A stretch of 34,343 nt of DNA, from assembly GCA_025353195.1 (NCBI GenBank), contig JANXRC010000238.1:1-34343 (forward strand), given 5' to 3'. Position numbers and translations under genes: made by a program. The stretch is from Rhodocyclaceae bacterium. Its GTDB lineage: Bacteria > Pseudomonadota > Gammaproteobacteria > Burkholderiales > Rhodocyclaceae. The stretch's first letter is position 1. Every line of letters begins with the position of its first letter. Shown here piece after piece: positions 20,447 through 26,126 of this stretch. The notes below the pieces were generated by a model. That model was not told where the DNA came from. It made no database searches and worked only from the letters and a program-made list of their open reading frames with translations.

Positions 20447-21871
20447 ATGCAGATACGGTATCCACGATCCTTCTTCAAACTGCTCTTTGTCGGCTTCATG
20501 CTGGCGGTGCTGCCGCTGTTGGTCGGCTTGATTGGCAACATCTTGGCCATCGAGCGACTCGCGGCACAAAGCCAGCGAGCTGTATATGACGCGGCGCGCA
20601 TTGCCCATGCCAGCCGCGAGTTGAACGATACGGCTGCTTCCCTGGAACGCGCCGCGCAACAAGCGACCGTACTACGCGACGCGGCGCTGTGGGAAGGCTA
20701 CAGGAACTTCCGTGCGCGCTTCCGCGACGCAGGCGCGAGGCTGGCGGAGATGCCGCTCGCGGCGGAAATACGCAAGACACTCGACGACCTGTTGCAGCAG
20801 GAATCCGCTCTCCACGAATCGCTGACGCGAAGCGGAACGACGGCAACCGAGGCCACAGCCACGGCCCGGCGCTACGCTGAAGTCGCCGCGGCGACGAGAA
20901 CTCTGCTGGAGGGCTCGAGTACGCTGATCGACCGCGAGGCCGAATCCTTGCGCGATTTGGCGGCAGAAACCGAGTCGCAGGCCCGGACCCAGCTGCTGGT
21001 ACTGCTGCCGCTGGCGGTCTTCGTCGTGGCCGGCTTCACCTACCTGCTGGCGCGGCCGATCAAGGAGCTGAACCAGGGCATACGCGATCTGGGCGAGCGT
21101 CGCCTCGACGCCCGGATCGAAGTCACCGGACCGGAAGACCTGGAACAACTGGGTCGTCAGCTCGACTGGCTGCGCCTGCGCCTGATCCAACTGGAGGAAC
21201 AGAAGAGCCGCTTCCTGCGACATGTCTCGCACGAACTGAAGACCCCCTTGACAATCCTGCGCGAGGGCTCGGAACTGCTGGCGGAAGAGGTGACCGGCAG
21301 CCTTTCCGGACGGCAACGCGAGATCGTGCATATACTGCAGCACAACAGCCTCGAATTGCAGCGCCTGATCGAGACCCTGTTGCGTCATGGCGAAGCCGAG
21401 TTCCAACTGGCACCGGTCAAGCTGCAGACGGTGAAGCCCTCGCAGATAATCGCCGCGATTGTGGAGCGGCAAAAGCTGGCCTATTCACCGAGGCGGATCC
21501 GGGTGACACTGCAGATGGAAGATTTCGCCATGCAAACCGACCCCGAACGATTGCGGGTAGTGCTCGACAACCTGCTGTCGAACGCCGCCAAGTATTCCCC
21601 CGACGACGGCGAGATCGTCGTGACCGCGAGAAAGGAAGAAGGATGGGCTGTGCTGGAAGTTCGCGATGACGGACCGGGAGTGGCGCCGGCGGAACGCGAC
21701 CGCATCTTCGAGCCTTTCTACCGCGGCAGCGCCGACGCAGCCGGCGCGGTGCGGGGAAGCGGCCTCGGCCTGTCCATCGCGCGGGATCACGTCCTGGCCA
21801 TGGGCGGAAATATCGCGGTGGGCGAGGGACAGGGGCGCTTCACGGTGACGCTGCCGCTGGGCACGCTATGA
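20447..21871 (+). CDS. glrK: Sensor histidine kinase, GlrK/QseE-like
   Basis: Two TM segments, HAMP, HisKA FLRHVSHELKTPLTILREGSELL, HATPase LDNLLSNAAKYSP..VRDDGPGVAPAERDRIFEPFYRG..GSGLGLSIARDHV; in operon with QseG- and GlrR-like genes. Confidence 0.88.
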   Translation: MQIRYPRSFFKLLFVGFMLAVLPLLVGLIGNILAIERLAAQSQRAVYDAARIAHASRELNDTAASLERAAQQATVLRDAALWEGYRNFRARFRDAGARLAEMPLAAEIRKTLDDLLQQESALHESLTRSGTTATEATATARRYAEVAAATRTLLEGSSTLIDREAESLRDLAAETESQARTQLLVLLPLAVFVVAGFTYLLARPIKELNQGIRDLGERRLDARIEVTGPEDLEQLGRQLDWLRLRLIQLEEQKSRFLRHVSHELKTPLTILREGSELLAEEVTGSLSGRQREIVHILQHNSLELQRLIETLLRHGEAEFQLAPVKLQTVKPSQIIAAIVERQKLAYSPRRIRVTLQMEDFAMQTDPERLRVVLDNLLSNAAKYSPDDGEIVVTARKEEGWAVLEVRDDGPGVAPAERDRIFEPFYRGSADAAGAVRGSGLGLSIARDHVLAMGGNIAVGEGQGRFTVTLPLGTL

Positions 21872-22421
21872 GCGCCCTGCGCCGGGTTGCGTTCATCTTG
21901 TGCAGCCTTCTCCTGTTGCCGGGGCTGAACAGTTGCGCGTTGCTGAAGGCGCCGCGCGACGCTTACTGGCTCGATCCGCAGGCGCCGCGGCCGAGCAGCG
22001 ATGCGGTATCGCTGCTTCACTATTCGGTGTTTGCCAGGAACCTGAGCGGCAAGCCGCTCGCCGAGGAAACGGAGCGTGTCCGTCTGGCCTACGCCGCCGA
22101 AAAAACCGATTTCCGTTTGCTGCAATACGCGACAGTGCTTTCCGTGCCCGGCGCGACCGCGGCAGACCACCGCCGCGCCCAACAACTGCTCGAGCCGGCG
22201 CCGCGGCCGGCGGATGGCCGCGACAGCGAGTTGCAGGCGTTGGCATCATTGATGCGTGCGAACCTGGCGGAGTACCGCCGCCTGGAAGAAGGCAGCCATT
22301 CCCAGGCGCAAAGGGCGCGGGAAGAACAGCGGCGAGCAGAGGATCTGGAGACCAAGTTGGAAGCCCTGAAAGACATCGAAAAGAGCTTGCAGCGCCACGA
22401 CAAGGGCGCGAAAGGTCCGAA

Positions 22422-22425
<4 letters not shown>
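21868..22425 (+). CDS. qseG: QseG-like lipoprotein
   Basis: Lipobox-like LLPGLNSC; coiled-coil C-terminus (RRAEDLETKLEALKDIEKSLQ); position between glrK and glrR; ATGA overlap with glrK. Confidence 0.65.
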
Positions 22426-23765
<1,340 letters not shown>

Positions 23766-23766
23766 G

Positions 23767-23784
23767 CGTCGCCGTTTGGCGACA
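23767..23784 (+). promoter_or_regulatory. Candidate GlrR upstream activating site 1
   Basis: cGTCGCCGTTTGGCGACa; begins 2 nt after the glrR stop; fits the TGTC-N10-GACA pattern with one mismatch. Confidence 0.7.
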
Positions 23785-23831
23785 TCGATAGTCCAGCAGA
23801 TTCAAGCAGTTGCTTCGGAACTCCGGGTTCC

Positions 23832-23849
23832 TGTCGCCGTTTGGCGACG
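23832..23849 (+). promoter_or_regulatory. Candidate GlrR upstream activating site 2
   Basis: tGTCGCCGTTTGGCGACg; same 16-bp core as site 1, 65 bp downstream. Confidence 0.7.
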
Positions 23850-23913
23850 GACGCGCACAGTCCTGTCCGCCGGGCAATCTAATAACCCTATGATTATAAA
23901 TAACTCTCCGTAT

Positions 23914-23928
23914 TGGCATGGCGCTTGC
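23914..23928 (+). promoter_or_regulatory. Sigma54 (-24/-12) promoter
   Basis: TGGCATGGCGCTTGC: GG-N10-GC spacing, near consensus TGGCACG-N4-TTGC; about 55 nt upstream of the first ATG. Confidence 0.8.
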
Positions 23929-23982
23929 GAAGGACCTGTTGAAGCATTCAATTCCGATGCTGCAACCACAAGGAGAGTAAGC

Positions 23983-24204
23983 ATGAAAGTTCAAGCGATA
24001 GCGCGGGTGGCCCTCCTGGTCATGGTGCCGTGGCTGGCGGCCTGCACCGGCAATCCGAGCAGGCAGGAGATCGGCATGGTTAGCGGAGCGATCGTCGGCG
24101 GCGTAGTGGGTTCCGCGCTGACAGGCGGAAGCACCGTGGGCACGGTCGGCGGCGCGGCCGCGGGCACCTATGTCGGCAACCGGATCGCCAAGGATATGAA
24201 ATAG
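23983..24204 (+). CDS. Small glycine-zipper lipoprotein
   Basis: MKVQAIARVALLVMVPWLAACTGNPSRQEIGMVSGAIVGGVVGSALTGGSTVGTVGGAAAGTYVGNRIAKDMK; lipobox LAAC, glycine zipper, AGGAG RBS. Confidence 0.85.
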   Translation: MKVQAIARVALLVMVPWLAACTGNPSRQEIGMVSGAIVGGVVGSALTGGSTVGTVGGAAAGTYVGNRIAKDMK

Positions 24205-24206
24205 TC

Positions 24207-24806
24207 ATGGATACCACCACCATCGACTCGCTGGGCGACAGCGCGGCAGCAAGTTCTGCGCGGCCGAAACTGCTGTATCCATCACTGGTCATCGCGGCGA
24301 TTTCGGTCACGATGTTCAGCCTGCTTGGCATCGCCACCCTGACCGGCCTCCTGCCGTCTGCCCATTCCACTCCGCAAGCGACCTTGGCGGCTAAATCCCC
24401 GCCGATAGGAAAATCAGCCCAAACGTCCAGCCAAACATCCCCTCAATCGACGCAGCTCGCGGCAACATCGTGCGCAGCTTGCGGCACGGTCGAATCGATC
24501 GCTGCCGTGGAACGCCCGGCGAGCACCACCGGCGTCGGTGCCGTGGCCGGCGGTCTGACCGGAGCCCTGCTGGGCAACCAGATGGGACGCGGCAACGGTC
24601 GCACCGTTATGACCCTCGCGGGCGGTGCAGGTGGCGCTTATCTCGGCAACCGGATCGAGCAGAACACGCGTCGCGTGACCTCTTACAAGATCGTGGTGCG
24701 CCTGGAGAACGGCAGCCAGCGCACGATCTATCAAAACGACGCGCCAAGCGTTGCGGTCGGCGGTCAGGTCCAGATCGTCGGCAATGCCATTGTCGCCCGC
24801 TCATGA
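24207..24806 (+). CDS. Glycine-zipper 2TM-domain membrane protein
   Basis: N-terminal TM; GVGAVAGGLTGALLGNQMGRGNGRTVMTLAGGAGGAYLGNRIEQN; C-terminal small beta-rich segment. Confidence 0.82.
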   Translation: MDTTTIDSLGDSAAASSARPKLLYPSLVIAAISVTMFSLLGIATLTGLLPSAHSTPQATLAAKSPPIGKSAQTSSQTSPQSTQLAATSCAACGTVESIAAVERPASTTGVGAVAGGLTGALLGNQMGRGNGRTVMTLAGGAGGAYLGNRIEQNTRRVTSYKIVVRLENGSQRTIYQNDAPSVAVGGQVQIVGNAIVARS

Positions 24807-25240
24807 AGACCCTGAGCCAGGCGAAGCAGCCGAACGGAATCAAGTTGCTCAGGCTGGTCACGATTTGCGGCGCCGTCGTGCTGCTCGGCGGCTGCGAGGC
24901 CATGGCCATTACGGCCTTCGGCGTCGGGGCGTCCACCGGCGTCGCACAAACCCTCAACGGCCGCGCCTACCGGACCTTCACGGCGCCGGTGGCTGAAGTC
25001 AAGCAAGCCACCCTGGCCGCCCTGGGGCGCATGGGCATGAAGGTGATTTCGAGCAAGCGGGTCGCCAACGAGGAAATCATCACCGCCAAAGCCACAGACC
25101 GGGAGATCGAAGTCACCCTGGAAATTCTCAGCCCCAATTCGACACGCATGCGCTCGATGACGAGGCAAGGAATGTTCTACGACAGCGCCACTTCGCTGGA
25201 AATTGTTTTGCAAACGGAAAAACGCATGATCAATGGATGA
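24803..25240 (+). CDS. DUF3568-like lipoprotein
   Basis: Lipobox VLLGGC; NGRAYRTFTAPVAEVKQATLAALGRMGMKVISSKRVANEEIITAKATDREIEVTLEILSPNSTRMRSMTRQG; ATGA overlap with the preceding gene. Confidence 0.72.
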   Translation: MKTLSQAKQPNGIKLLRLVTICGAVVLLGGCEAMAITAFGVGASTGVAQTLNGRAYRTFTAPVAEVKQATLAALGRMGMKVISSKRVANEEIITAKATDREIEVTLEILSPNSTRMRSMTRQGMFYDSATSLEIVLQTEKRMING

Positions 25241-25253
25241 GGAGATTGACGAA

Positions 25254-26087
25254 ATGAACAAACACACCCAAAGGCTGCTGGTCGTCAGCGCCACCTACTT
25301 TGCCCTGAGCCCCGCGTTCGCGGTGGAAGCAGCTGCCGGTACCGCCCCTGCCGTAACCATCACCGACACCAACACGGTCGGCAAAAGCGGCGGCGCCGTA
25401 CCCGCGACCCGCATCGCCAACCACTTCGCGCGCTTTGCCGGTTCGCCGCAAAACGCCGCCAGCCTGGTCGCCGGACTACGCAGCGGCACGGCGATCACGC
25501 TGGTCTCACCAGGCTCGGCGACCGGTGTCAGTTTCACCCCGACGACCAAGCCGATGGGCTACGGCAACATTACCCACGCTCTGACGCTGGCCCAGCGCCA
25601 GTTGGCGGCCCAGGGTGTCACCCAGCCCACGCCGCAACAGTTGAATACCGCGCTGAATGGCGGAACGCTGACCATCATCAGCAGCAGTGGCGCCACCCGC
25701 ACCGTCCAGATGTCGGGCGTCCTGCAGTTGCGCAGCCAGGGTCTGGGCTGGGGACAGATAGCCCACCAGCTTTCCGTGAGCCCCGGCAACGGTCCAACCA
25801 CGGCCAAGGCAACCACGACGCAAGGCAGTGTCGATGTGCGCGGCAGTGCCAGCAGTCACGGCGCAATCGTCTCCGGCGACGGCACGATAATGCACGGTCG
25901 CGCGCCGGGTGTTTCGACCGCGGTCGAGAAGCGCGAGCAAACTGAGGCACACGGACAGGAGCAGGCCCATGCACGCGTGCAAGTCGTCCAGACCGGCAGC
26001 CCGTCGTCGATCGCCCAGAGTTCCTCACTCGCGGCAGGCAACCCGGCAATGGGCTCCATTCAGGCGCACGGTCACGGCCGCTTTTGA
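25254..26087 (+). CDS. Hypothetical secreted protein
   Basis: ATG at 25254 with GAGGAG RBS; signal peptide MNKHTQRLLVVSATYFALSPAFA; low-complexity Ser/Thr/Gly/Gln-rich mature region. Confidence 0.75.
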   Translation: MNKHTQRLLVVSATYFALSPAFAVEAAAGTAPAVTITDTNTVGKSGGAVPATRIANHFARFAGSPQNAASLVAGLRSGTAITLVSPGSATGVSFTPTTKPMGYGNITHALTLAQRQLAAQGVTQPTPQQLNTALNGGTLTIISSSGATRTVQMSGVLQLRSQGLGWGQIAHQLSVSPGNGPTTAKATTTQGSVDVRGSASSHGAIVSGDGTIMHGRAPGVSTAVEKREQTEAHGQEQAHARVQVVQTGSPSSIAQSSSLAAGNPAMGSIQAHGHGRF

Positions 26088-26100
26088 GATATCTCGACGC

Positions 26101-26126
26101 TCAGGCGGCCGGTAATGGCCGCCTGA
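26101..26126. repeat. Strong hairpin TCAGGCGGCC-GGTAAT-GGCCGCCTGA
   Basis: Perfect 10-bp arms starting 14 nt after the stop of the secreted-protein gene; no U tract. Confidence 0.75.

Follow-up and report, generated by a model that had tools for sequence, protein, structure and literature searches.

The 34,343-nucleotide stretch of DNA from a Rhodocyclaceae bacterium that was analysed here (the window) contains, between a glrR-like gene and an operon for glycine-zipper envelope proteins, an interval with two palindromes and a sigma54-type promoter, and it raises the question which regulator acts there and what is controlled by it. To our knowledge, work on GlrKR/QseEF has been confined almost entirely to enteric bacteria, where it dealt with GlmY, GlmS and virulence. 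An initial annotation of the window read the interval as a self-contained GlrR/sigma54 unit. We come to the conclusion, at a probability of roughly 0.9, that it is an enhancer-type sigma54 control region of the GlrK-QseG-GlrR system, predicted to drive the glycine-zipper envelope operon. The presence of this module, its conservation, its co-occurrence with glrR and the identity of its target are direct observations of the present, purely computational study; the regulator, its DNA site and the sigma54/IHF mechanism are already known from enterics.

The regulatory operon

Three genes on the forward strand precede the interval. The first (20447..21871) encodes a GlrK/QseE-like sensor histidine kinase with Pfam HAMP, HisKA and HATPase domains, and its relatives upstream of glrR in the genus are 60-90% identical. 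The second (21868..22425), located between kinase and regulator, encodes a QseG-like lipoprotein without a Pfam family. It was assigned by a profile: an HMM of same-position lipoproteins from non-enteric glrR loci, with the enterics left out, matched E. coli QseG at 41.7 bits; the window lipoprotein itself is not among the members of this HMM owing to the lipobox filter, and its close relative from locus L006 is included. A C-terminal motif, KLE-L-(D/E)IE--L, is shared as well.

The third gene (22422..23765) encodes a sigma54-dependent response regulator (Pfam REC, Sigma54_activat and lid), which the initial annotation had called GlrR. The top NCBIfam model is indeed GlrR (NF011695) with 603 bits, the runner-up reaching 387 bits. 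Since the score lies below the equivalog cut-off of 763 bits, which is an annotation threshold, we name the protein GlrR-like and regard it as an orthologue candidate. It combines a receiver, in which D56 is invariant, an AAA+ domain with GAFTGA at residue 216 and a Fis-type HTH. The latter was assigned by aligning the C-terminal GNV-QAA-LARRNRT-FYKLL segment to E. coli GlrR, not by Pfam, and the RNRT-FYKLL recognition region of the E. coli protein is retained. Because of the gene order kinase-lipoprotein-regulator together with the domain, NCBIfam and QseG-profile results, the locus is, as judged from its sequence, a complete glrK-qseG-glrR operon.

The genome also encodes a GlrR paralogue (approximately 48%) at G000:C141:8238-9525 (L132 3239-4525), likewise present in L133, which has lost GAFTGA but kept the GlrR DNA-binding helix and has its own kinase and lipoprotein. 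A glycine-zipper gene lies 3' of this paralogue in G002 and G023. Judging by these residues, the paralogue could bind GlrR sites without activating sigma54.

The dyad pair

The palindromes are two exact copies of GTCGCCGTTTGGCGAC on the forward strand, dyad 1 at 23768..23783, directly 3' of the glrR stop codon, and dyad 2 at 23833..23848. As the initial annotation had stated, they are identical, 16 bp long and 65 bp apart from start to start. Dyad 1 has the same place in relatives, and the 65-bp spacing is conserved. The site of QseF/GlrR has been given as TGTCN10GACA (PMC8745638) and as TGTN12ACA, acting with the help of IHF (PMC6075780). The window holds a spaced pair of TGTC-N10-GACA/GTCGC-N6-GCGAC dyads. 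The annotation had TGTC-N10-GACA as the GlrR site, and this is the canonical one, but each window dyad is without one outer base (C-GTC...GAC-A in dyad 1, T-GTC...GAC-G in dyad 2), a deviation that is common among the conserved relatives too. In E. coli K-12, the dyads TGTCGCTTTCTGGCGACA and TGTCTCTTTTTAGCGACA lie 64 bp apart upstream of glmY; the window dyads share with them the GTCGC-N6-GCGAC core and the spacing.

A single dyad with at most three mismatches is expected 0.9 times per window by chance and hence not rare. The 3.4-Mb genome, in contrast, has just one strict pair and no match to the pattern read backwards. Under a looser rule, with two GTC-N10-GAC motifs at a distance of 65 bp, two places in the genome matched, both with a promoter at equal distance, against one match of the reversed control. 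Chance palindromes can be ruled out, the strict pair being unique in the genome and missing from glrR-negative congeners.

The position of dyad 1 right behind the stop codon, and the 6-bp stem with a 4-nt loop that it would form, could also be taken to mean that the dyads function in the RNA, as hairpins that close the glrR transcript on its 3' side and serve either as a terminator or as stability elements. There is no T-tract, however, no terminator-like site was called at the dyads, and the same spaced pair, with a -24/-12 element downstream, stands upstream of genes unlinked to glrR and of enteric glmY. We therefore rejected this explanation, to which we give hardly any weight.

Probable IHF site, promoter and predicted leader

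The proposed TGGCATG-N4-TTGC element is present at 23914..23928 on the forward strand (TGGCATGGCGCTTGC, N4 being GCGC). Its GG at -24 and GC at -12 have the 10-bp spacing of sigma54 promoters (TGGCAY-N5-TTGC), this spacing is conserved in relatives, and rpoN is present in the genome. The AT-rich stretch between dyads and promoter contains a probable IHF site, as had been suggested: AATCATAGGGTTA on the reverse strand at 23883..23895 agrees with WATCARNNNNTTR in 12 of 13 positions. Its offset from the -24 element is fixed and equals that of the exact WATCARNNNNTTR matches in L006, L007, L008, L010 and L011.

Since transcription is predicted to start at about 23940 and the first ATG is at 23983, the leader would comprise about 43 nt, in agreement with the earlier estimate. 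The absence of a GlmY-like sRNA was borne out as well: between 20000 and 27500 there was no Rfam match at all, and thus none to the GlmY family (RF00128) downstream of the promoter, and the same search recovered GlmY in E. coli and two further enterics as positive controls. These results led us to reject a GlmY/GlmZ-like RNA hidden in the leader.

The predicted target operon

Four genes on the forward strand follow the promoter. Gene 1 (23983..24204) encodes a small OsmB-like glycine-zipper lipoprotein (Pfam PF05433/PF13488; weak match to the OsmB model) with the lipobox LAAC and the ribosome site AAGGAG. The product of gene 2 (24207..24806; PF05433) is a membrane-anchored glycine-zipper protein related to SlyB, which is also its top match among solved structures (7ojf, E 2.6e-5); a close copy occurs only in glrR-bearing relatives. 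Genes 1 and 2 thus share the glycine-zipper domain with the outer-membrane lipoproteins SlyB and OsmB. Unlike SlyB, the gene 2 product seems to be anchored in the membrane by its N-terminus and has no lipobox. SlyB itself is controlled by PhoPQ and is not known to depend on sigma54. Gene 3 (24803..25240) encodes a predicted DUF3568 lipoprotein (PF12092), which is kept in the operon, and gene 4 (25254..26087) a secreted protein without a family match in Pfam or NCBIfam, which is 47-53% identical in five of the six neighbourhood loci compared. Given the relationship of gene 2 to SlyB and the weak one of gene 1 to OsmB, the job of the operon is likely envelope reinforcement. A strong GC hairpin without a T-tract (CAGGCGGCC...GGCCGCCTG, 26102-26125) is located 3' of the last gene and possibly marks the end of the operon.

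All of these genes point in the same direction as the regulatory operon, the intergenic gap measures about 217 nt, and no clear terminator follows glrR. The operon might therefore be transcribed mainly by readthrough of messages begun at the glrK promoter, or an internal sigma70 promoter might be used, the sigma54 promoter being minor. We regard this as rather improbable, since no sigma70-like promoter was found in the region and the entire enhancer-promoter geometry is strongly conserved.

Conservation and co-occurrence with glrR

Within the genus of the window, the strict pair is present in all seven genomes whose GlrR is at least 67% identical and missing from all 24 genomes without glrR (Fisher p = 3.8e-7, an optimistic value because the congeners are related and the counts not independent). 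A class-wide search detected the strict pattern in only 4 of 369 genomes. As this pattern is overly stringent for a wide survey, a scan anchored on glrR took its place. Dyad pair and sigma54 promoter were found in the expected geometry at 32 of 61 loci of GlrR orthologues, but other sigma54 activators had them at 0 of 37 loci (344 kb; one match in 98 loci in the reversed-sequence control). At the remaining 29 GlrR loci, the strict rule gave no match in the DNA covered, some of the contigs ending early.

In the modules, the dyads are spaced by 63-68 bp (77 at one locus), and dyad 2 lies 79-126 bp from the -24 element. At a single offset upstream of the -24 element, the IHF consensus is exact in 15 of 47 modules (shuffled-spacer mean 0.02) and has at most one mismatch in 32 of 47 (shuffled-spacer mean 0.42); in E. 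coli, the promoter of glmY had no IHF site at this shared offset. Positions 4 and 13 of the dyad covary (G-C in 44 of 60 sites, T-A in 8), as would be expected of a site that a protein recognises symmetrically; the outer positions 1-3 and 14-16 are part of the search rule and cannot serve as evidence. The initial annotation had made its proposal depend first of all on conservation in orthologous loci. Since these loci conserve the dyad pair as well as the IHF position and the -24/-12 element, the proposal withstood this first attempt at refutation.

These data also bear on the identity of the regulator. Sigma54 activators are numerous in the genome (29 matches to the query) and include the GlrR paralogue with its nearly identical DNA-binding helix, so that another protein, an NtrC-type activator or a repressor, might bind the dyads and be associated with the operon by happenstance. 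Against this speaks that the sites track the presence of glrR exactly in the genus, that many families have them next to glrR and none of the other activators tested has them nearby, and that they match the E. coli GlrR/QseF consensus. Binding by another regulator is accordingly very unlikely in our view.

A second module and the proposed wider regulon

Pattern searches, on which the regulon of the organism itself is based, revealed a second, unlinked module. The looser search located its pair at G000:C45:5872-5952 (region C45:5148-5952, L134), the -24/-12 element is CGGCACGGCGCTTGCT, and the geometry (-146/-81) is identical to that of the window. The gene downstream encodes a bactofilin (PF04519). 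The bactofilin module is also present in six other glrR-bearing genomes, namely the congeners G001, G011, G015, G022 and G027 and, with a geometry of -146/-80, a member of another genus (G031). Among relatives with glrR, 14 of 22 have an orthologue of this bactofilin (at least 50% identity), as against 1 of 39 without glrR (p = 1.8e-7), and in the sole glrR-negative relative that has one, G043, no site was found there.

Further GlrR-type modules of the genus (L120, L121-L124, L127 7179) precede genes for EipA (PF06577) or for a small secreted, periplasmic-type DPPPWAAAHG protein. Because of the bactofilin module and these further modules, GlrR is, as far as the predicted sites tell, the activator of a small envelope regulon and not purely local. 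The designation of the interval as self-contained therefore has to be modified: the window module does form a local arm beside glrR, but a module of identical geometry precedes the unlinked bactofilin gene. A further candidate at G000:C227:1471-1574 (L125 1560) was set aside as a GlrR target, as its dyads are 20 bp apart and differ in sequence. Its promoter, a consensus sigma54 promoter upstream of a gene for a long secreted protein with a CxxCH motif, is probably the target of another activator.

Outputs of the module in different lineages

The genes behind the module differ between lineages. In the genus of the window they encode an OsmB-like lipoprotein and a SlyB-like glycine-zipper protein, and in other families of the order the glycine-zipper membrane protein stands by itself. 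Oxalobacteraceae, Dechloromonas and Chitinimonas have genes for BON-domain proteins at this place, Comamonadaceae and Sphaerotilaceae have opgG or opgH, and a number of gammaproteobacteria have genes for EF-hand proteins. The enteric module is directed towards glmY. The initial annotation was right in assuming an mRNA output without a GlmY-like RNA, but this is not peculiar to the window genome, as the mRNA-type arrangement, read from gene positions, is the commonest among the non-enteric loci examined.

Short stretches that end in a terminator and have no Rfam match follow the module in L022 and L023 (the L022 terminator was read by eye). Here, a terminator-like hairpin stands downstream of a GlrR-type promoter (L023 1236-1254, reverse strand; L022 3025-3160), no more than about 75-120 nt away, and a gene is not evident; these may possibly be non-enteric, GlrR-driven small RNAs. 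In the Halomonadaceae loci L047 and L053, the module precedes glrK by about 470-500 nt, the position of glmY, with no Rfam match in between; an unrecognised GlmY-like RNA is possible in this interval. In six loci of Comamonadaceae and Sphaerotilaceae (L038, L041, L042, L048, L050, L070), a start codon, belonging to opgG, a small ORF or opgH, falls on approximately +1 to +5 relative to the sigma54 start predicted there, which suggests that these mRNAs are leaderless. L041 and L048 have a 67-aa leader ORF before opgH in common.

A tree of enteric and betaproteobacterial GlrR proteins, weakly rooted at its midpoint and containing few outgroups, unites the Opg outputs in a single group with good support; the remaining outputs cluster as well, though several changes are needed to account for them. 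This pattern fits a switch that was kept while its outputs were exchanged. We lean towards the view that GlrKR is an ancient envelope regulator of Pseudomonadota and some neighbouring phyla, whose portable enhancer-IHF-sigma54 cassette was placed on envelope effectors differing between lineages (glycine-zipper, BON and EF-hand proteins, glucan synthesis by OpgG/OpgH, bactofilin), GlmY being one derived output and not the original one.

Comparison with known systems and proposed mechanism

The locus resembles the QseEGF/glmY system of Enterobacterales in gene order (kinase-lipoprotein-regulator), in having GTCGC-N6-GCGAC dyads at a distance of about 64 bp, in the sigma54 promoter, in the putative assistance by IHF (known for enterics from the literature) and in the tie to envelope homeostasis. 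It differs in that the enteric module lies upstream of glrK and yields the sRNA GlmY, whereas that of the window lies downstream of glrR and is predicted to yield a protein-coding mRNA. Furthermore, two dyads were found in the window as compared to three in QseEGF/glmY. A protein-coding envelope-stress target of GlrR/QseF, unlinked to the regulator, is also known from E. coli, namely rpoE P2 (PMC6075780). That target is a sigma factor, whereas those predicted in the window genome are structural envelope proteins and a bactofilin. Sigma54 regulons have been proposed to converge on the cell exterior in a study that lists 117 QseF-like activators (PMC3162934); the passages of it considered here describe neither a module of the window type nor its targets.

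By analogy, envelope stress would be sensed by GlrK, modulated by the QseG-like lipoprotein, and lead to phosphorylation of GlrR. GlrR oligomers would then occupy both dyads, as the identity of the sites with those of E. coli suggests. The fixed geometry is consistent with IHF bending the AT-rich stretch, so that the GAFTGA loops of GlrR could reach sigma54-RNA polymerase at -24/-12. The mRNA starting at about 23940 would give rise to the glycine-zipper, DUF3568 and secreted envelope proteins, and the equal geometry at the unlinked bactofilin gene would mean that a single small regulon covers both envelope and cell shape.

We found no earlier report connecting GlrR/QseF with glycine zippers, SlyB, BON proteins, opgG or betaproteobacteria in the literature searched, which covered few subscription papers. 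Within the same literature, the arrangement downstream of glrR, the protein-coding outputs of the module, a bactofilin target and a lineage-wise exchange of outputs are unreported, and no tie of sigma54 to bactofilins or periplasmic glucan synthesis was encountered.

That numerous betaproteobacteria have the enhancer geometry next to genes for structural envelope proteins, together with the conserved bactofilin target, provides testable regulons in harmless organisms and links sigma54 to bactofilins and periplasmic glucan synthesis. It is also a clean case of a regulator that retains its DNA switch with the output swapped, and the non-enteric modules suggest what GlrKR may have served for before GlmY.
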